Part shown: positions 6,668-61,440 of the stretch, one piece after another
How positions within the stretch are numbered: position 1 is the stretch's first letter
Layout of the letters: the number at the start of each line of letters is the position of its first letter
Source of the DNA: Kiritimatiellia bacterium
GTDB lineage: Bacteria; Verrucomicrobiota; Kiritimatiellia; WLWN01
Assembly: GCA_012103575.1 (NCBI GenBank)
Contig: WLWN01000001.1
Span: forward strand, 2,732,538-2,796,537
Direction of reading: 5' to 3'
Length of the DNA: 64,000 bases
Position numbers and translations under genes: made by a program
Notes under the pieces: generated by a model
The model's input: only the letters and a program-made list of their open reading frames with translations
What the model was told of the DNA's origin: nothing
Database searches by the model: none

Positions 6668-7667
6668 TAGAGCATTTAACGATTGAAATGCCTCTTTAGA
6701 AGATCTATACTCCATGACATGAGTATAGCAACAGCAGAAATCCGGCGGCGTGCGATAGATGCCTACAAAATGGGCAAAGGTTCCCAGGCCGATATCGCAT
6801 CTTCTTATCGTGTAGATCTTAGAACGTTTCAGCGTGGGCTCTCTTGTTTCAACGAAACCGGACAGACCGCTCCCCGACCGCGTGGGCATCGTCAGGCCTT
6901 CTACAGCGGAAAGCAGCTCAAGGCGTTGGCTCAACTGGTGGGCAAACATCCCGATGCAACGCTTGAAGAACTCAAGAACATGAGCGGCGTGAAGGGGTCG
7001 ATCATGGCCGTACAGCGGGCGTTGAATCGGTTGGGCTGCCGGTATAAAAGAAACGCTTCACGCCAGCGAGCAAGACCGGGCGGATGTAAATCTCTTGAGA
7101 AAGCAGTGGATCCAAGAGGTGGCCAAACTTGATCCAAGTCGCCTTGCCTTTATTCATGAATCCGGGGCGAAAACGAATATGACTCGTCTGCGGGGCCGGG
7201 CGTTGGGCGGGAACAGGCTTTTTGCCAAAACGCCTCATGGACATTGGTGTACCACCACCTTGATTTCTTCGGTCCGCCTGGACGGAACAACAGCGGCCAT
7301 GGAGGGGGAGGGGGCGACAGAGACGGCTGTTTTTGGAGAATATATTCGCCGGGTTCTTCTCCCGACTCTTTCACCTGAAGACATCGTCATCATGGACAAT
7401 CTTCGCGTCCATCACAATCCCAAGGTCATTGAACTCATTGAGTCATGTGGGGCCCATGTAAGATTCCTTCCACCCTACAGCCCCGATTCCAACCCCATTG
7501 AAAAAATGTGGGGCAAGATAAAGAATCGGTTGGGCAGCCTTGCAGCCCGCAGTCAGCAGGAGCTATCTGAAGCGATCACACAAGCGTTCGAAGAGGTTTC
7601 TCCCGACGACGTAATCGGCTGGTTTTCTTCGTGCTGCATCGCGATACCTCAATCGTGAAGCGCTCTA
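6668..7667 (+). mobile_element. IS630-type element, copy 2 (1000 bp)
   Basis: Complete from TA to TA. The left end TAGAGCATTTAACGATTG and the right end, TAGAGCGCTTCACGATTG on the other strand, form the terminal inverted repeat. It lies inside phoR in the orientation opposite to the kinase. It carries the 4-bp frameshift shared by four of the six copies, at about 7031-7040. Confidence 0.93.
6719..7658 (+). pseudogene. IS630 transposase, frameshifted
   Basis: The first half (6719 to about 7135) is the helix-turn-helix domain; the second (about 7087-7658) is the DDE domain with FIHESGAK, IVIMDNLRVHH and SNPIEKMWGKIK. They are out of frame because of the 4-bp gain at about 7031. In this copy the first catalytic aspartate is also altered (FIHESG instead of FIDESG), so it is inactive on two counts. 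Confidence 0.88.
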
Positions 7668-11133: not shown

Positions 11134-12129
11134 TAGAGCGCTTCACGATTGAGGTGTCGCGATGTAGCACGAAGAAAACCAGCCGATTACCTCGTCGGGA
11201 GAAACCTCTTCGAACGCTTGTGTGATCGCTTCAGATAGTTCCTGCTGACTGCGGGCTGCAAGGCTGCCCAACCGATTCTTTATCTTGCCCCACATTTTTT
11301 CAATGGGGTTGGAATCGGGGCTGTAGGGTGGAAGGAATCTTACATGGGCCCCACATGACTCAATGAGTTCAATGACCTTGGGATTGTGATGGACGTGAAG
11401 ATTGTCCATGATGACGATGTCTTCAGGTGAAAGAGTCGGGAGAAGAACCCGGCGAATATATTCTCCAAAAACAGCCGTCTCTGTCGCCCCCTCCCCCTCC
11501 ATGGCCGCTGTTGTTCCGTCCAGGCGGACCGAAGAAATCAAGGTGGTGGTACACCAATGTCCATGAGACGTTTTGGCAAAAAACCTGTTCCCGCCCAACG
11601 CCCGGCCCCGCAGACAAGTCATATTCGTTTTCGCCCCGGATTCATCAATAAAGACAAGGCGACTTGGATCAAGTTTGGCCACCTCTTGGATCCACTGCTT
11701 TCTCAAGAGATTTACATCCGCCCGGTCTTGCTCGCTGGCGTGAAGCGTTTCTTTTATACCGGGAAACCGATTCAACGCCCGCTGTACGGCCATGATCGAC
11801 CCCTTCACGCCGCTCATGTTCTTGAGTTCTTCAAGCGTTGCATCGGGATGTTTGCCCACCAGTTGAGCCAACGCCTTGAGCTGCTTTCCGCTGTAGAGGG
11901 CCTGGCGATGCCCACGCGGTCGGGGAGCGGTCTGTCCGGTTTCGTTGAAACGAGAGAGCCCACGCTGAAATGCTCTAAGATCTACACGATAAGAAGATGC
12001 GATATCGGCCTGGGAACCTTTGCCCATTTTGTAGGCATCTATCGCACGCCGCCGGATTTCTGCTGTTGCTATACTCATGTCATGGAGTATAGATCTTCTA
12101 AAGAGGCATTTCAATCGTTAAATGCTCTA
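11134..12129 (-). mobile_element. IS630-type element, copy 3 (996 bp, intact)
   Basis: It runs from TA to TA with both terminal repeats and contains an uninterrupted transposase, so it is a candidate active copy. Its right end abuts the terminal repeat of the IS66-type element (TAGTTGAATTC), meaning it inserted at, or recombined into, that border. Confidence 0.95.
11143..12078 (-). CDS. IS630 family transposase
   Basis: 311 residues from MSIATAEIRRRAIDAYKMGK. An N-terminal helix-turn-helix pair (QADIASSYRVDLRAFQRGLS, NMSGVKGSIMAVQRALNRFP) is followed by a DDE catalytic domain with FIDESGAKTNM, IVIMDNLHVHHNP and SNPIEKMWGKIKNRL, giving D, D and E. I start at 12078 rather than the upstream ATG, which lies in the terminal region. 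It catalyses cut-and-paste transposition into TA. The frame across NRFPGIKETLHASE is intact, unlike in the four frameshifted copies. It is a possible source of enzyme for those. Confidence 0.93.
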   Translation of the reverse strand: MSIATAEIRRRAIDAYKMGKGSQADIASSYRVDLRAFQRGLSRFNETGQTAPRPRGHRQALYSGKQLKALAQLVGKHPDATLEELKNMSGVKGSIMAVQRALNRFPGIKETLHASEQDRADVNLLRKQWIQEVAKLDPSRLVFIDESGAKTNMTCLRGRALGGNRFFAKTSHGHWCTTTLISSVRLDGTTAAMEGEGATETAVFGEYIRRVLLPTLSPEDIVIMDNLHVHHNPKVIELIESCGAHVRFLPPYSPDSNPIEKMWGKIKNRLGSLAARSQQELSEAITQAFEEVSPDEVIGWFSSCYIATPQS

Positions 12130-14188: not shown

Positions 14189-15210
14189 TACAAGTGCAAA
14201 GGTCCGCAGCATAGTTCATTCTTTGGGTATCTGACCCCCCCCAAAGGAGAACATAGAATGCCACGAACCTACGAACATTTAAACCGTTATGAACGAGAAG
14301 TGATAGCCCAGATGCTAAAAGAAAAATATAGCTTATCTCAAATTGGCCGTCACCTAGGCCGATCCCCCTCGACTATTTGGCGCAAATTTCGCCGTAATCG
14401 AGTCCGTGGCCGCTATTACCCAAGACCCGCAAATGGCCTGGCTCAAAGCCGATTACAGCTAGCTCGAAAGCCTCAAAAAGTGATGGGAGCTAGCAAAGAA
14501 CAAGTGGAGACTCTCCTGGCGAAGTATTGGTCTCCAGAACAGATTGAAGGTCGAAGAAAGCTAGAAGGTGACCCTCCCATCAGTCGAATGACGATCTACC
14601 GCTACTTGTACAGTCCAAGAGGGGCTGGCTACCGAAAATACCTGCGTGGCCCCGGAAAGAAAAAACGAGCGACTCGGAAAAGCCATTCACGTATACACAA
14701 CCAAACGATGATTGACCAACGCCCCGAAGAGGGTGAAAGTCGCAAGGTGGCAGGCCATTGGGAAGGTGACACTATTCAGGGCCAAACGAGAAAAGAGGCC
14801 TGTGTAGTCACTCTAGTAGATCGAGCGACTCAATATCTCATCGCCGATCTTTTACCTCGATGCAATGCCGAATCGGTCAACCGTTCCGTACCTCAGTTCG
14901 CTGATTCAGGGCTCCCCTGTAAAACGGTGACTGTAGATAATGGCATGGAGTTTGCCAGCCATGCTAAACTACAGAAAAAAATAGCAACCCCCATTTTCTT
15001 TGCTGAAGGGAGAAACCCTTGGCAAAGAGGGACCAACGAAAACACGAATGGTTTGCTTCGCCAGTTTTTCCCGAAGAAAACCGACTTTGCTGCCCACAGC
15101 TCCGCTCAGTTGAGATGGGCTGTAGAGTTACTGAATAATAGACCGAGAAAATGCTTAGAATATAGAACGCCCAAAGAAATGATGGACAGCTTCGGTTTTG
15201 CACTTGTAAG
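14189..15210 (+). mobile_element. IS30-type element A
   Basis: Terminal repeats TACAAGTGCAAA at the left and TTTGCACTTGTA at the right, with an intact IS30 transposase between them. The right end lies inside a ketosynthase pseudogene. The transposase stop codon falls just outside the right repeat. Confidence 0.8.
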
Positions 15211-15214
15211 TTGA
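14258..15214 (+). CDS. IS30 family transposase
   Basis: 318 residues, uninterrupted. An N-terminal helix-turn-helix typical of IS30 (LNRYEREVIAQMLKEKYSLS...IGRHLGRSPSTIWRKFRRN) leads to a DDE core with GHWEGDTIQG, VTVDNGMEFASH and ENTNGLLRQFFPKKTDF. A Shine-Dalgarno AAAGGAG precedes the ATG. The coding sequence runs through the right terminal repeat (FALVS) and ends at 15214, so the last residues depend on the integration site. Likely functional. Confidence 0.94.
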   Translation: MPRTYEHLNRYEREVIAQMLKEKYSLSQIGRHLGRSPSTIWRKFRRNRVRGRYYPRPANGLAQSRLQLARKPQKVMGASKEQVETLLAKYWSPEQIEGRRKLEGDPPISRMTIYRYLYSPRGAGYRKYLRGPGKKKRATRKSHSRIHNQTMIDQRPEEGESRKVAGHWEGDTIQGQTRKEACVVTLVDRATQYLIADLLPRCNAESVNRSVPQFADSGLPCKTVTVDNGMEFASHAKLQKKIATPIFFAEGRNPWQRGTNENTNGLLRQFFPKKTDFAAHSSAQLRWAVELLNNRPRKCLEYRTPKEMMDSFGFALVS

Positions 15215-17132
15215 GTCTGCACATACGCAATCCGTATTTCCTTGAATCCAGTATCGTTCTCTTGAAAACGGATAGGTCGGCAGGGAGTGACGCGTTGGTC
15301 TCGGACAAGAATAAAGTAACCTCCAATCTACGGTTAATCCTATGACCCACAATTGAGCCAGCTGCTCCCACTCATGATCTTCTAATATCGCTTTTACAAA
15401 TTCTTCCCAAACTCGTCCTCGAGCCATCAGATCCAATGTTTTATTATCCCTCTTTATATTCCCTCGATAGACAGACGGTATATTCTCTGTCCCGGCCTGA
15501 TACTGCATTAACTTATCGGTCAGTTCTTCTCGACTCTTTACCACCATAGCCAATCGTTCGCTCATGGCTTCCCGACCCACCTGGAGAGTGTAGGCCACGT
15601 CTTCAAGACGTGGCGTCAAAGGTCGAAGGTCCAACGTCGAAGGATCGACGTAATCCATAAGATTTTGGGCCATTGCTTTAAGCTGGTCTTCATTCTTCGC
15701 TGAGAGTACGATCAAGCAGGGTTTGTCGGACAGGTCCGACCGGTCAGACTTGTTGGGCACATCCAACCACTCCTCGATGACTACATGTGCATTGGCACCG
15801 CCAAAACCAAAAGAATTGACACCTGCACGGCGAGGTATTTCTAGTCCATGAGGATCTTTCAACCTTTCCCACGGTTTCGTTTTTGTCACGAGATAAAAGG
15901 GAGTATCCTCCAGCTTGATCTTAGGATTTAGGGTCTCAAAGTTTTGAAGCGGCGCTAATGTTTGCGCCCTCAAGGACAATATGACCTTAATAAGACCCGC
16001 TATTCCCGCAGCGCCTTCCAAGTGTCCAACGTTAGTTTTAATCGCGCTCACACCACAGAATGGCTCAGCACCCTTTTTAACATGTGGGCTGAAACATCGT
16101 TTCAGGCCAAGGATCTCCAAAGGATCGCCTATCGGAGTTCCGGTCCCATGCGCTTCAATAAAAGTAATCGTATTGGGCAACACACCCGCATCTTCATACG
16201 CTTTCTTTAACACTTGAGACTGAGAGAATGAGTTAGGAGAAGTCAATGTCCTTGCAGTCCCTCTATGATTGAAGGCGCTGCCTTTTCAAAACCGCGACGA
16301 TATTATCACCGTCTTCCAAGGCGGCCTTCAACTTCTTTATGAGTATAAGTCCCGCGCCCTCCCCTCTCACATACCCATCGGCTTCGGCATCAAATGTTTT
16401 ACATCGGCCTTTCGGTGATAACATACCTAAATGGCTCAAAGAAATATAGCGAGCACCACTACAGAGGATGCTGGCGCCCCCTGCCAAGGCAATATTACAT
16501 TCACCTTAGTCTAATGCTTTTCACCGCATTATGTACGGCGACTAATGAACTCGAACAGGCCGTATCAATAGAAACGCTGGGGCCATGTAAGTTATAATAG
16601 TACGAGACCCGATTCGGGATCATGGCATTTGCTGTTCCCGACAAAAAGTGTCTCGGAATATCTTCCCTATATTTATCCAGCAATTCCTTGTAATCATAAT
16701 TGCAGACACCGATGTAAAACCACGTGTCACTACCCGCGAACTGGCTAGGGGCATAACCTGCGTCCTCTATACATCCCCACGTCAACTCGAGCATGATCCG
16801 CTGCTGCGCGGATCCATGCTTTCTGCTTCGACACGAGAGATATTAAAGAAGGATGCATCAAACGTATCGATGCCTTCAACAAAACCACCCCACTTGCTAT
16901 TTGTTTTGTTTCTTTCTCTTTGAGGGTCGCCATAGTAGTTTCTCCAATCCCAACGATCTTCTGGAATTTCACAGATACTATTAACGCCTCCTCTTAAATT
17001 CTTCCAAAAGCTCTGATAATCATGGGCACCAGGAAATCGGCATGCCATCCCAATGATCGCAATATCTCTTTCATTATCCACGTCATAGGCTGCTTCAGAG
17101 ACTTCTTGCGAAGTATTTTCTTTCCTCCTCAT
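15211..17132 (-). pseudogene. Polyketide synthase ketosynthase, frameshifted and truncated
   Basis: A type I/trans-AT style ketosynthase, read from 17132 (MRRKENTSQEV). It shows IAIIGMACRFPGAHDYQSFW, the active cysteine in DTACSSSLVAVHNA, histidines in EAHGTGTPIGDPLEI and NVGHLEGAAGIAGL, then the post-KS linker ending YPFSRERYWI. At least three single-base shifts break it: about 16785, about 16508 and about 16285. IS30 element A removes everything downstream. No acyl carrier protein or other polyketide domain is visible nearby. The module is a relic. Confidence 0.9.
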
Positions 17133-17361: not shown

Positions 17362-17844
17362 GTGTCATTAATGCAAAGACGTAGTCAGGAAGAAATACAG
17401 GCTCAGATTAAAAAGTGGAATGACTCATATCCGATCGGAACCAAAGTCCTTTCGGATGTCTATCCAGAAAAAGAACATGAAACCAAAACTGAAGCCATGT
17501 TATTGTTTAACCAAAAAGCGGTTGTTTACTTGAAAGATTATAATGGATATTTTGATCTAGATGAGATCCATCCGGCAGAAAAGAAAACGTCATCAACCGC
17601 CTCGGAAGTCATAGAAGCGGAAACGATACTAGAGGAAGCTCCTCCTAAGCAAACAGAACAGAAAAAGGCCTCTACAAAGAAAAAGAAGCTCTCTAAACCC
17701 GAACAAACTGAGTCAAGTACAACCTCGGAAGTCACAGAAGAAACAGAAACAACTCAAGAGATTCCTGAGCCAGAACCTGAAAAGGTCTCTGCAGAGTCAA
17801 AAGATTCTTCTAAACCCAAAAAGACAAAGAAAAAAAGCACATAG
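17362..17844 (+). CDS. Small folded domain with Lys/Glu/Ser/Thr-rich tail, unknown
   Basis: 160 residues. Residues 4-72 look like a small globular domain (WNDSYPIGTKVLSDVYPEKE, MLLFNQKAVVYLKDYNGYFD). The rest is low-complexity and polyampholytic, with KKK clusters, TEETETTQEIPEPEPE and KPKKTKKKST. I choose GTG at 17362 because AAGGAG lies five bases upstream; ATG at 17371 would be too far away. The next gene, 83 bp downstream, is a tandem arginine methyltransferase. The tail has almost no arginine, so it is not an obvious substrate. I do not recognise the family. Confidence 0.72.
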   Translation: MSLMQRRSQEEIQAQIKKWNDSYPIGTKVLSDVYPEKEHETKTEAMLLFNQKAVVYLKDYNGYFDLDEIHPAEKKTSSTASEVIEAETILEEAPPKQTEQKKASTKKKKLSKPEQTESSTTSEVTEETETTQEIPEPEPEKVSAESKDSSKPKKTKKKST

Positions 17845-17927: not shown

Positions 17928-20003
17928 ATGAAAGGTGACTTATCCAGCATCTTAGGAAGACGGCTAACAAAATATCTAAATAGTCTGCACGAGGCATACC
18001 TTCCTCAACAACTTTTTGAACGTGTCGCTGATACCCAACGACACGAAGCTTATCGGAAGGCTTTGGCGTCTAAGCTGGCACGGAAGCCAGACGCCCACGT
18101 TTTGCAGACAGAGCGTGGTTCCATCCTTTTGGCGATGGAAGCTATACGGTTGGGGGCTAGCCGAGTGACACTGTGCGAGCCTTGGGGTTCTCTAGCGTCT
18201 CTCTACGAGATGATAATCCATGACAATGACTTGACCGATCGGATTATCGTGACGCGCAAAAAGTTTGTCGATATGCAGTCTATCGATCTTGTACTCGAAC
18301 AACCCCCGACCCTGCTTGTATGCTATAATCTCGACTGCGGTCTTCTTGGCTATGGGTTAGCAGCGACATTGGATCATGCCTGGAAACACGTGCTGCCTAA
18401 GAACGCGGAAGTTATACCCGAGCATGCTTTAGTATACGGTTGTCCCATAGAATTACGTACAGGGGATACAAACGGCTTTGATTTAAGCACCTTTAATCGT
18501 TATCGTTGGTCGCTGTTCTATGATCGCGTTCGGTTAGGCGAGGAGCCATATCAAAAAATGGCAGATCCTCAATCTTGTAGTAAGTTGGACTTTACTCAAG
18601 CGTTGGTCTGCGAACCTCGAACCCTAGAATTTACCAGCCATGATGAAGGCATAATCAATGCTATCGCTTTTTGGTTCGAACTTGAGCTCGATGGCCAAAA
18701 TCGAATAACCAATGTCCCGCCCACATCAACAACGTCCAGCTGGCATCAAGCGCTCCAGTACCTCGATCAAACTCTGCCCGTAAAAGCCAACCAACCTTTC
18801 AGCATGAATGTCGGCATAGGGCCCCATGGAATCCGTTTTCGCCCAGAAGGAATGGAAGATCCCCTCCCGCTTCTCAGACTTAAACCCATAGTGCCTGCCT
18901 GGCATTTTACGATGCTAGCTGATACACGGCGAAACGACTGTTATGAAAAGGCCATCACTCATGCTGTGAAAAAAAATCCTTCAGGTCATGTGCTGGATAT
19001 AGGAACAGGAACAGGCCTTTTGGCCCTGATGGCGGCCAGGACAGGTGCCTCGCACATTACCGCATGTGAACGGATACCCCATTTAGCAGAAGTCGCGCAT
19101 ACACATTTTCTTAAAAATGGCTTTTCGGACCGCATCCAGTTATCTCAGAAGGATTCTAAAAAGATGAAAGTTCCTGATGATATGCCCCAAAAAGCCCACA
19201 TCCTCATTTCTGAAACGATCGACCATAGTCTGTTGGGCGAAGGGTTTCTGGAAAGCCTCATGCATGCTCGCGCCCACTTAATGGTCGATGATCCAACCAT
19301 TATCCCCGCCTCAGCAACCGTCTATGCCACAGCCCTGGAATTACGCACCGATGAAGTATCGGGATTTAATCTGAGCGCATTGAATCTTTTTCGACATCGC
19401 CACTATCAAGGAATCAAACTCCATGAAACCGCCCACCGATTCCTTACCGAACCTTTTGAAGCGTTCCATTTCAATTTCTATGAACGGAACTTCGAAGCGC
19501 AGCAGAAACATTTTGAGGCCCCGGCCATCGACCAGGGAATCTGTAACGCAATTGCATTTTGGTATGATCTATCTTTAGATGAAGAAACCATGATTAGTAC
19601 GGCTCCTAACTCAGACATTACGGCCTGGGGCCAAGCGGTTATTTTTTTGGATCAAGAATTCATCGTGGAAAAGGGACAGATCCTCCCCATTACAGGTCAA
19701 GCCGACAATCAATCGCTCCAGTTCTATATCGAACCCCTTAACTACATCCTAGAAGGGGGGCGCTCTCAATCTTTGGAAATCCCTCTTTGGTTTAACGAAC
19801 TGTCGGAAGAAGAAGTCGAGATGCACAACTCGACAGAAGCGATCCGATCGATCATCCAGGATGAATACTCGTATATTTGTAAATCTACATTGGACATTTT
19901 GGTGGAACAACATACAGCCCTTGGCTACGACCCCGGATTGTTCTCTGATTTTATAACACAGATCTACAATACCAGTGGTCTACAACAGGAAGATGGGTTG
20001 TAG
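17928..20003 (+). CDS. Tandem PRMT-fold protein arginine methyltransferase (PRMT7/9-like)
   Basis: 691 residues with two copies of the PRMT module. The first (about 30-320) is degenerate: HVLQTERGSILLAMEAIRLG stands where the AdoMet loop should be, and CYNLDCGLLGYGL replaces the double-E loop. The second (about 330-620) is canonical: HVLDIGTGTGLLALMAARTG binds AdoMet, SETIDHSLLGEGFLESLMHA is the double-E loop with both glutamates, and AIDQGICNAIAFWYDL matches the barrel region. Two fused modules with only one active resemble eukaryotic PRMT7 and PRMT9, though in PRMT7 the inactive module is the second. The predicted reaction is methyl transfer from AdoMet to protein arginine; the target is unknown. 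No membrane segment or signal peptide. Confidence 0.8.
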   Translation: MKGDLSSILGRRLTKYLNSLHEAYLPQQLFERVADTQRHEAYRKALASKLARKPDAHVLQTERGSILLAMEAIRLGASRVTLCEPWGSLASLYEMIIHDNDLTDRIIVTRKKFVDMQSIDLVLEQPPTLLVCYNLDCGLLGYGLAATLDHAWKHVLPKNAEVIPEHALVYGCPIELRTGDTNGFDLSTFNRYRWSLFYDRVRLGEEPYQKMADPQSCSKLDFTQALVCEPRTLEFTSHDEGIINAIAFWFELELDGQNRITNVPPTSTTSSWHQALQYLDQTLPVKANQPFSMNVGIGPHGIRFRPEGMEDPLPLLRLKPIVPAWHFTMLADTRRNDCYEKAITHAVKKNPSGHVLDIGTGTGLLALMAARTGASHITACERIPHLAEVAHTHFLKNGFSDRIQLSQKDSKKMKVPDDMPQKAHILISETIDHSLLGEGFLESLMHARAHLMVDDPTIIPASATVYATALELRTDEVSGFNLSALNLFRHRHYQGIKLHETAHRFLTEPFEAFHFNFYERNFEAQQKHFEAPAIDQGICNAIAFWYDLSLDEETMISTAPNSDITAWGQAVIFLDQEFIVEKGQILPITGQADNQSLQFYIEPLNYILEGGRSQSLEIPLWFNELSEEEVEMHNSTEAIRSIIQDEYSYICKSTLDILVEQHTALGYDPGLFSDFITQIYNTSGLQQEDGL

Positions 20004-20128: not shown

Positions 20129-21124
20129 TAGAGCGCTTCACGATTAAGGTGTCGCGATGTAGCACGAAGAAAACCAGCCGATTACCTCGTCGGGAGAAAC
20201 CTCTTCGAACGCTTGTGTGATCGCTTTAGATAGTTCCTGCTGACTGCGGGCTGCAAGGCTGCCCAACCGATTCTTTATCTTGCCCCACGTTTTTTCAATG
20301 GGGTTGGAATCGGGGCTGTAGGGTGGAAGAAATTTTACATGGGCCCCACATGACTCAATGAGTTCAATGACCTTGGGATTGTGATGGACGCGAAGATTGT
20401 CCATGATGACGATGTCTTCAGGTGAAAGAGTCGGGAGAAGAACCCGGCGAATATATTCTCCAAAAACAGCCGTGTCTGTCGCCCCCTCCCCCTCCATGGC
20501 CGCTGTTGTTCCGTCCAGGCGGACCAAAGAAATCAAGGTGGTGGTACACCAATGTCCATGAGGCGTTTTCGCAAAAAGCCTGTTCCCGCCCAACGCCCGG
20601 CCCCGCAGACGAGTCATATTCGTTTTCGCCCTGGATTCATCAATAAAGACAAGGCGACTTGGATCAAGTTTGGCCACCTCTTGGATCCACTGCTTTCTCA
20701 AGAGATTTACATCCGCCCGGTCTTGCTCGCTGGCGTGAAGCGTTTCTTTTATACCGGGAAACCGATTCAACGCCCGCTGTACGGCCATGATCGACCCCTT
20801 CACGCCGCTCATGTTCTTGAGTTCTTCAAGCGTTGCATCGGGATGTTTGCCCCCCAGTTGAGCCAACGCCTTGAGCTGCTTTCCGCTGCAGAGGGCCTGA
20901 CAATGCCCACGCGGTCGGGGAGCGGTCTGTCCGGTTTCGTTGAAACGAGAGAGCCCACGCTGAAACGTTCTAAGATCTACACGATAAGAAGATGCGATAT
21001 CGGCCTGGGAACCTTTGCCCATTTTGTAGGCATCTATCGCACGCCGCCGGATTTCTGCTGTTGCTATACTCATGTCATGGAGTATAGATCTTCTAAAGAG
21101 GCATTTCAATCGTTAAATGCTCTA
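20129..21124 (-). mobile_element. IS630-type element, copy 4 (996 bp, intact)
   Basis: It runs from TA to TA with both terminal repeats. The left flank is the methyltransferase stub and the right flank is a 5'-truncated IS30 element. The two flanks do not rejoin, so the copy marks a recombination junction. Confidence 0.95.
20144..21073 (-). CDS. IS630 family transposase
   Basis: 309 residues from MSIATAEIRRRAIDAYKMGK. The frame is intact across NRFPGIKETLHASEQ. The DDE region carries FIDESRAKTNM, IVIMDNLRVHHNP and SNPIEKTWGKIKN. Glycine-to-arginine after DES and methionine-to-threonine before W distinguish it from copy 3 and may weaken activity. It stops after IATP, two codons earlier than copy 3. 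Confidence 0.92.
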   Translation of the reverse strand: MSIATAEIRRRAIDAYKMGKGSQADIASSYRVDLRTFQRGLSRFNETGQTAPRPRGHCQALCSGKQLKALAQLGGKHPDATLEELKNMSGVKGSIMAVQRALNRFPGIKETLHASEQDRADVNLLRKQWIQEVAKLDPSRLVFIDESRAKTNMTRLRGRALGGNRLFAKTPHGHWCTTTLISLVRLDGTTAAMEGEGATDTAVFGEYIRRVLLPTLSPEDIVIMDNLRVHHNPKVIELIESCGAHVKFLPPYSPDSNPIEKTWGKIKNRLGSLAARSQQELSKAITQAFEEVSPDEVIGWFSSCYIATP

Positions 21125-40948: not shown

Positions 40949-41948
40949 TAGAGCATCTAACGATTGAGATGTCTCTTTAGAAGATCTATACTCCATGACA
41001 TGAGTATAGCAACAGCAGAAATCCGGCGGCGTGCGATAGATGCCTACAAAATGGGCAAAGGTTCCCAGGCCGATATCGCATCTTCTTATCGTGTAGATCT
41101 TAGAACGTTTCAGCGTGGGCTCTCTCGTTTCAACGAAACCGGACAGACCGCTCCCCGACCGCGTGGGCATCGTCAGGCCCTCTACAGCGGAAAGCAGCTC
41201 AAGGCGTTGGCTCAACTGGGGGGCAAACATCCCGATGCAATGCTTGAAGAACTCAAGAACATGAGCGGCGTGAAGGGGTCGATCATGGCCGTACAGCGGG
41301 CGTTGAATCGGTTGGGCTGCCGGTATAAAAGAAACGCTTCACGCCAGCGAGCAGGACCGGGCGGATGTAAATCTCTTGAGAAAGCAGTGGATCCAAGAGG
41401 TGGCCAAACTTGATCCAAGTCGCCTTGCCTTTATTGATGAATCCGGGGCGAAAACGAATATGACTCGTCTGCGGGGCCGGGCGTTGGGCGGGAACAGGTT
41501 TTTTGCCAAAACGCCTCATGGACATTGGTGTACCACCACCTTGATTTCTTCGGTCCGCCTGGACGGAACAACAGCGGCCATGGAAGTAGAGGGGGCGACA
41601 GACACGGCTGTTTTTGGAGAATATATTCGCCGGGTTCTTCTCCCGACTCTTTCACCTGAAGACATCGTCATCATGGACAATCTTCGCGTCCATCACAATC
41701 CCAAGGTCATTGAACTCATTGAGTCATGTGGGGCCCATGTAAGATTCCTTCCACCCTACAGCCCCGATTCCAACCCCATTGAAAAAATGCGGGGCAAGAT
41801 AAAGAATCGGTTGGGCAGCCTTGCAGCCCGCAGTCAGCAGGAACTATCTGAAGCGCTCACACAAGCGTTCGAAGAGGTTTCTCCCGACGAGGTAATCGGC
41901 TGGTTTTCTTCGTGCTACATCGCGACACCTCGATCGTGAAGCGCTCTA
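40949..41948 (+). mobile_element. IS630-type element, copy 5 (1000 bp)
   Basis: Complete from TA to TA, inserted cleanly in the Amuc_1099-like gene: the flanks rejoin in frame when one TA is kept. It carries the 4-bp frameshift at about 41311-41320. Confidence 0.95.
41000..41939 (+). pseudogene. IS630 transposase, frameshifted
   Basis: Same structure as the other frameshifted copies: helix-turn-helix half in frame from 41000, catalytic half in a second frame to 41939. FIDESGAKTNM and IVIMDNLRVHH are intact; NPIEKMRGKIK has arginine where other copies have tryptophan. Confidence 0.88.
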
Positions 41949-60517: not shown

Positions 60518-61440
60518 TAGAGCGCTTCACGATTGAGGTATCGCGATGTAGCACGAAGAAAACCAGCCGATTACCTCGTCGGGAGAAACCTCTTCGGACG
60601 CTTGTGTGAGCGCTTCAGATAGTTCCTGCTGACTGCGGGCTGTAAGGCTGCCCAACCGATTCTTTATCTTGCCCCACATTTTTTCAATGGGGTTGGAATC
60701 GGGGCTGTAGGGTGGAAGGAATCTTACATGGGCCCCACATGACTCAATGAGTTCAATGACCTTGGGATTGTGATGGACGCGAAGATTGTCCATGATGACG
60801 ATGTCTTCAGGTGAAAGAGTCGGGAGAAAAACCCGGCGAATATATTCTCCAAAAACAGCCGTGTCTGTCGCCCCTTCCCCCTCCATGGCCGCTGTTGTTC
60901 CGTCCAGGCGGACCGAAGAAATCAAGGTGGTGGTACACCAATGTCCATGAAGCGTTTTGGCAAAAAGCCTGTCCCCGCCCAACGCCCGGCCCCGCAGACG
61001 AGTCATATTCGTTTTCGCCCCGGATTCATCAATAAAGACAAGGCGACTTGGATCAAGTTTGGCCACCTCTTGGATCCACTGCCTTCTCAAGAGATTTACA
61101 TCCGCCCGGTCTTGCTCGCTGGCGTGAAGCGTTTCTTTTATACCGGCAGCCCAACCGATTCAACGCCCGCTGTACGGCCATGATCGACCCCTTCACGCCG
61201 CTCATGTTCTTGAGTCCTTCAAGCGTTGCATCGGGATGTTTGCCCACCAGTTGGGCCAACGCCTTGAGCTGCTTTCCGCTGCAGAGGGCCTGACGATGCC
61301 CACGCGGTCGAGGAGCGGTCTGTCCGGTTTCGTTGAAACGAGAGAGCCCACGCTGAAACGTTCTAAGATCTACACGATAAGAAGATGCGATATCGGCCTG
61401 GGAACCTTTGCCCATTTTGTAGGCATCTATAAATGCTCTA
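60518..61440 (-). mobile_element. IS630-type element, copy 6 (923 bp, start deleted)
   Basis: From TA to TA, but 77 bp are missing between AGGCATCTAT and AAATGCTCTA. This removes the transposase start codon and most of one terminal repeat. It carries the shared 4-bp frameshift. It sits cleanly inside a kinase gene whose reading frame is restored when it is removed. Confidence 0.93.
60527..61430 (-). pseudogene. IS630 transposase, frameshifted and without start
   Basis: The helix-turn-helix half lacks its first 13 residues (frame enters from host DNA at IDAYKMGKGSQADIASSYRV). The catalytic half is in another frame. It cannot move by itself, and with a damaged end probably not at all. Confidence 0.88.

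Follow-up and report, generated by a model that had tools for sequence, protein, structure and literature searches.

A tandem PRMT7/9-like methyltransferase with a degenerate first half, probably a tailoring enzyme of a decayed trans-AT polyketide cluster

Genes at the locus

We analyzed a stretch of 64,000 nucleotides (the window) from the genome of a Kiritimatiellia bacterium. The genes of interest are, in order, a broken trans-AT polyketide synthase (PKS) gene on the minus strand, a gene for a small protein, a gene for a tandem PRMT-like methyltransferase on the plus strand, and an insertion sequence (IS). The PKS remnant (15224..17132, minus strand; PF00109, PF02801, and PF22336) retains an N-terminal ketosynthase and a RhiE-like linker. 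It starts at 17132, divergent from the methyltransferase gene, and is cut off near 15224 by a transposase ORF (14258..15214, plus strand; IS30-like by inspection). The remnant is frameshifted: the ketosynthase is spread over at least four frames, and TGA, TAG, and TAA codons lie inside the ketosynthase matches. It is 41-46% identical to most of the PKS ketosynthases of its own genome. A RhiE-like linker (PF22336) is established as typical of ketosynthases that have no acyltransferase behind them in cis, hence our trans-AT reading of this gene. In a profile search of the genome, no acyltransferase match was left at the window locus.

On the other side, another transposase (IS630-like by inspection; 20144..21109, minus strand) lies 140 bp downstream of the methyltransferase gene. 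The same transposase protein is repeated in the window, with some copies shortened (7095-7658, 11143-12114, 20144-21109, 41376-41939, and 60527-61090). An earlier note, made from the letters of the window, described most of the neighboring genes as broken. The PKS remnant and several IS elements agree with this, but the genes for a Cu/Zn superoxide dismutase, an HtrA-like protein, and PheS, as well as later genes, look intact.

A tandem PRMT-like protein with one degenerate half

The methyltransferase gene (17928..20003, plus strand) is open over 691 codons, and in an alignment its ATG matches the start codon position of the closest homologue. As the earlier note proposed from its ORF and translation, this single intact chain contains two PRMT-type modules. 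The Pfam model PRMT_C matches the protein in two stretches (68.5 bits, E 8.7e-19, above the cut-off), and generic methyltransferase profiles from Pfam match residues 340-440. Among solved structures, the best matches for the whole protein are PRMT9 (E 5.7e-39) and PRMT7 (E 3.6e-29). PRMT9 or PRMT7 is also the best match for each half by itself. In particular, residues 1-320 alone match PRMT9 at E 3.7e-17 (and PRMT7 at E 3.9e-14), so the first half is truly derived from a PRMT.

The two halves differ in their catalytic motifs. Half 2 (residues 319-610; 18882..19757, plus strand) has the PRMT fold and is the proposed catalytic half: it contains WHFxMLxDTxRN, LDIGTGTGLLA, ACE, SETIDHSLLGEG, and a TAW loop. 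The TAW takes the place of the THW loop and is also found in half 2 of the Verrucomicrobia homologue discussed below, while PRMT9 has TCW. Half 1 (residues 1-318; 17928..18881, plus strand) also has the PRMT fold. At the position of the AdoMet loop, the motif table from the alignment gives HVLQTERGSILLAM in half 1 against HVLDIGTGTGLLALM in half 2, with LQTERGSILL standing where half 2 has the glycine-rich LDIGTGTGLL. At the double-E loop, half 1 has YNLDCGLLGYG against SETIDHSLLGEG in half 2, and its two glutamates are replaced by Y and Y. Given these replacements, half 1 has lost its AdoMet loop and its two double-E glutamates, all of which half 2 retains, just as the earlier note described. 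With a significant profile match, AdoMet motif I, and the double-E loop, the second module lies inside the PRMT family, in both profile and structure searches. We propose that half 1 is a structural pseudo-dimer partner. The chain ends in a tail (residues 611-691; 19758..20000, plus strand) that is helical in the predicted model, at low confidence, and is 67% identical to the tail of the Verrucomicrobia homologue.

An AlphaFold model of the 691-residue protein, built from four sequences, had a pLDDT of 63 and a pTM of 0.50. Foldseek aligned this model (pTM 0.50) to PRMT9 and PRMT7 over about 640 columns, with TM scores of 0.56-0.62. As an alignment of a predicted model, this supports the doubled architecture rather than any relative packing of the halves.

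The small protein is a stand-alone accessory domain

The small protein just upstream (17371..17844, plus strand; start at GTG 17362 or ATG 17371) has a domain of about 55 residues followed by a tail rich in K, E, S, and T. Pfam gave no match for this stand-alone protein. The domain itself (window positions 17371-17565) also occurs at the C-terminus of trans-acting acyltransferases, at loci L042, L043, L059, and L060. In OFTM167, a Verrucomicrobia MAG (G346), trans-acting acyltransferases that are 409-434 residues long carry it as a C-terminal extension. At one OFTM167 locus, the genes after an acyltransferase with the domain encode a SolJ/BaeB-like hydrolase and an enoylreductase (PfaD-type by inspection), and one OFTM167 copy has a lysine/serine-rich linker that resembles the tail of the window protein. 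On plasmids, the domain is found in Ensifer and Agrobacterium genes that are annotated as acyltransferase or ACP S-malonyltransferase, and the Agrobacterium gene adjoins genes for a phosphopantetheinyl transferase and a second acyltransferase. So, judging from these sequence matches, the small protein is a trans-AT accessory domain encoded by a gene of its own. It had been suggested to be an independent partner of the methyltransferase; we set this aside because its domain is an acyltransferase C-terminal extension. A lone weak match to topoisomerase (E 0.16) covers the K/E/S/T-rich tail.

Tandem homologues lie beside trans-AT genes

Full-length tandem relatives are rare, and those that we found are uncharacterized. 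A scan of GTDB contigs found one, which is 67% identical to the window protein, in OFTM167. Within the phylum, the tandem form is present in 2 of 388 genomes, namely the window genome and G560, whose match equals that of OFTM167 in place, size, and identity. A protein with a single PRMT_C match is present in four other genomes among 346 of the class. The third tandem protein is from Eleftheria terrae (WP_301261096, gene N7L95_RS29100, 883 amino acids; 30% identity over 476 residues), where it is annotated merely as a methyltransferase domain-containing protein. Its N-terminal region carries TPRs; of the two halves, the first is degenerate and the second is live, but the second double-E glutamate is a lysine. 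The dead half comes first and the live half second in all three tandem proteins (two of which are from one phylum). The doubling that the earlier note likened to PRMT7/9, with the dead half first and in a bacterial genome, is real and unusual.

All three tandem genes also have trans-AT genes beside them. In the window, the neighbor is the ketosynthase remnant with its RhiE-like PF22336 linker. In OFTM167, whose genome has 88 ketosynthase matches, the C-terminus of an acyltransferase is encoded 184 bp upstream of the homologue (PF00698 is weak; a PKS profile matches at 6e-5). The homologue is followed by a metallo-beta-lactamase (MBL) hydrolase, whose best model is SolJ of the solanimycin cluster (NF041804, E 2e-60), and then by an RND efflux set. 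In Eleftheria terrae, the genes directly before the homologue encode an acyltransferase and an enoylreductase, the latter of PfaD type by inspection, and the cluster also holds PKS, HMG-CoA-synthase-type, and FabV genes. As the window cluster is a fragment whose acyltransferase is gone, the membership of the window gene in a trans-AT cluster rests on synteny with these two other loci.

Polyketide synthases of the host genome

Elsewhere, the host genome has about 45 ketosynthase domains, in part in duplicated PKS blocks, and matches PF00698 in only four places. Genome-wide, there are thus few acyltransferases per ketosynthase, as expected for trans-AT systems. Two of the PKS blocks (G000:C1, about 605-647 kb and 723-761 kb) are near-identical duplicates with equal ketosynthase scores. 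The first PKS ORF of the genome begins with the order methyltransferase-adenylation-ketosynthase, and another PKS ORF ends in a thioesterase. Candidatus Patea custodiens, the producer of pateamine, has large duplications, and the first module of its pathway has glycine adenylation and an N-methyltransferase (PMC7157528). The host PKS set fits that description, both in its duplicated blocks and in the domain order of its first ORF. A role of the tandem protein in pateamine biosynthesis is not supported, as the PKS region with a pateamine-like domain order is about 1 Mb or more distant on the contig. A frame of 24,434 residues beside another PKS region turned out to be a run of N (G000:C1, about 1479.9-1552 kb, or about 72 kb).

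Role of the tandem protein

The presence of trans-AT genes at all three tandem loci makes a tailoring methyltransferase the best-supported role. We think it likely that the tandem protein is an AdoMet-dependent methyltransferase with an accessory (tailoring) role in a trans-AT polyketide pathway, that half 1 is its internal partner, and that its own cluster has decayed. The C-terminal half would bind AdoMet and methylate a small molecule or a carrier-bound intermediate at an N or O nucleophile, perhaps a polyketide hydroxyl or a guanidine or arginine-derived nitrogen. The degenerate N-terminal half would pack against it, replacing the homodimer that single-module PRMTs need. That both glutamates are kept in the window protein fits a guanidine-like substrate. 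In the Eleftheria terrae protein, the second double-E position is a lysine, which indicates that the family is not uniform and may include O-methylation.

An obvious alternative is that the tandem protein is a genuine PRMT9/PRMT7-type protein arginine methyltransferase, acting on bacterial or host proteins, and that its polyketide neighbors are coincidental or are regulated by the enzyme. PRMT9 and PRMT7 are its nearest relatives in both sequence and fold, and the WHFxMLxD motif, the double-E loop, and a THW-like loop are all kept; on sequence grounds, the retained glutamates could fit an arginine-like substrate, possibly in a protein. Also, the organism is probably a sponge symbiont, and the TPRs on the Eleftheria terrae protein and on single-module relatives could bind proteins. 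But the trans-AT neighbors at all three tandem loci argue against it, a by-eye look found no secretion signal or effector context, and the bacterial PRMT relatives named in the papers that we consulted act on small molecules (PMC12637814, PMC5572114). So, we consider protein methylation quite improbable, and the initial framing of the gene as a stand-alone protein arginine methyltransferase gives way to trans-AT polyketide biosynthesis, to which both its context and its relatives point. As these relatives sit in antibiotic-type polyketide clusters, decoration of a natural product rather than methylation of a protein is the most likely function.

Other origins for the gene were considered. A tblastn search of 50,697 phage records gave no match. 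Among defense and phage families, there was one PADLOC match (mads_2) and one match to a PHROG methyltransferase, both over the generic AdoMet region alone.

Is the gene still in use? In our proposal, the parent pathway has decayed here: its synthase gene is frameshifted and cut by an IS, and the small acyltransferase-domain gene and the methyltransferase gene remain open as what is left of a second trans-AT cluster. A more severe version, compatible with the tailoring role, is that the gene only looks intact, is already out of use in a dying cluster, and will soon be lost. The broken synthase gene next door, the IS elements on the flanks, the lack of any remaining acyltransferase match at the locus, and the near-chance level of promoter-like matches would all fit. 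In contrast, neither the 691-codon frame nor the small gene is interrupted, whereas the neighboring ketosynthase has several lesions, and both halves show strong long-term constraint relative to the OFTM167 homologue (dN of 0.22, saturated dS). We lean away from this version, while granting it a substantial chance. The proposal in the earlier note that intactness reflects selection is supported only indirectly, as dN is an average over a long history and does not speak to the period since the cluster decayed. Because dN is near 0.2 in both halves, the dead half has been constrained as well, as expected of a structural partner.

Origin of the doubled architecture

In a tree of 29 rows, the first halves of all three tandem proteins fall into a single clade (89/86), which is grouped with the second halves of the window and OFTM167 proteins (90/83), and this set also contains the PRMT9 N-module (95/95). 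The tree includes a few eukaryotic sequences, taken from structure alignments. With long branches in the tree, the AU test did not reject a single clade of the six bacterial halves (p 0.595), nor a grouping of the first halves with the PRMT7/9 C-modules (p 0.105).

One scenario, which is compatible with the tailoring role, is that a eukaryotic PRMT9-like gene was transferred into bacteria and the opposite half later decayed. The placement of the PRMT9 N-module among the tandem modules, the status of PRMT9 as the best match, and the grouping at p 0.105 agree with a transfer. This seems unlikely, because PRMT9 has its dead half at the opposite end, because half 1 groups with bacterial half 2 and a single bacterial clade is not rejected (p 0.595), and because the path from half 2 to the single-module TPR-PRMT relatives of Pyrinomonadaceae and Desulfobacteraceae is shorter than that to PRMT9.

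Bacterial proteins with TPRs and a single PRMT module were seen in Pyrinomonadaceae (L039), Desulfobacteraceae (L040), and Rhizobium (L030). We take the TPR-PRMT order of these proteins to be that of PRMT9. Near the L039 and L040 genes are a methyltransferase gene and genes that look carbamoyltransferase-like by inspection. On plasmids of Pantoea (L029) and Methylobacterium (L033), a single PRMT-like gene lies beside genes for an iron-containing redox enzyme/diiron-oxidase, a Rieske protein, and an ATP-grasp protein. The Pantoea and Methylobacterium loci are apparently a conserved small biosynthetic cassette, and the label "ribosomal protein L11 methyltransferase" is an apparent misannotation. 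Single-module copies on Streptomyces plasmids adjoin genes for arginine deiminase, cupin, GFA, and DUF3865 proteins, and these loci presumably resemble streptozotocin-type clusters.

A broader proposal is that tandem PRMTs with a dead first half form a distinct class of trans-AT tailoring enzymes, with a built-in dimer partner and a bacterial origin independent of PRMT7/9, that methylate a polyketide or guanidine nucleophile, and that the TPR-PRMT proteins may be prokaryotic kin ancestral to the architecture of PRMT9. As a whole we hold this only tentatively, and would sooner expect parts of it to fail. The usual view of PRMTs is that they are eukaryotic enzymes that modify proteins. If a bacterial tandem PRMT does serve trans-AT polyketide synthesis, it would mean an unrecognized tailoring step for an important class of antibiotics from sponge symbionts and soil bacteria. 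The tandem proteins would also be a second, order-reversed case of an apparent internal pseudo-dimer and a new setting for testing the PRMT dimer rule. Finally, PRMT9-like TPR-PRMT proteins in several bacterial phyla bear on the origin and duplication of PRMT7, which have been described as needing further investigation (PMC8399567).

Comparison with known methyltransferases

A search of the available literature found no paper that joins trans-AT with arginine methyltransferase. We compare the window protein with systems that share parts of its anatomy or context. PRMT9 and PRMT7 have in common with it two modules in one chain, one of them degenerate, as well as the WHFxMLxDxxRN start, the LDIG loop, and the ETxDxxLxGEG double-E loop. 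In PRMT7, the N module is active and the C module is inactive (PMC8399567). This order, which PRMT9 shares, is reversed in all three tandem proteins. The window protein also differs from PRMT9 and PRMT7 in being bacterial, in its trans-AT polyketide neighbors, in having TAW for THW, and in its extra C-terminal helical tail. The Eleftheria terrae protein likewise has its dead half first and lies behind trans-AT acyltransferase and enoylreductase genes, but it has an added N-terminal TPR region and a lysine for the second double-E glutamate.

Among characterized bacterial enzymes, SznE is an arginine methyltransferase of the streptozotocin pathway, used as the search query by which the saskemycin cluster was located (PMC12637814), and BlsL N-methylates a guanidine (PMC5572114). 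Like the window protein, with the trans-AT context of its remnant and of two homologous loci, these PRMT-like enzymes come from natural-product clusters (PMC12637814, PMC5572114), but their pathways are not trans-AT polyketide pathways. The Streptomyces relatives that we saw are not tandem, and they are distant, with 28% identity across 39-42% of the query. The LynB3 and LynB5 domains, which we liken to the window protein from their description, are PRMT-like methyltransferases that serve a PKS/NRPS assembly line (PMC10127204). They differ in lying inside an interrupted NRPS adenylation domain and are not described as tandem. LynB3-OMT resembles arginine methyltransferases, and its presumed reaction is the O-methylation of a tyrosine hydroxyl (PMC10127204). 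Thus, the characterized bacterial relatives SznE and BlsL, and probably LynB3-OMT too, are biosynthetic methyltransferases of small molecules.
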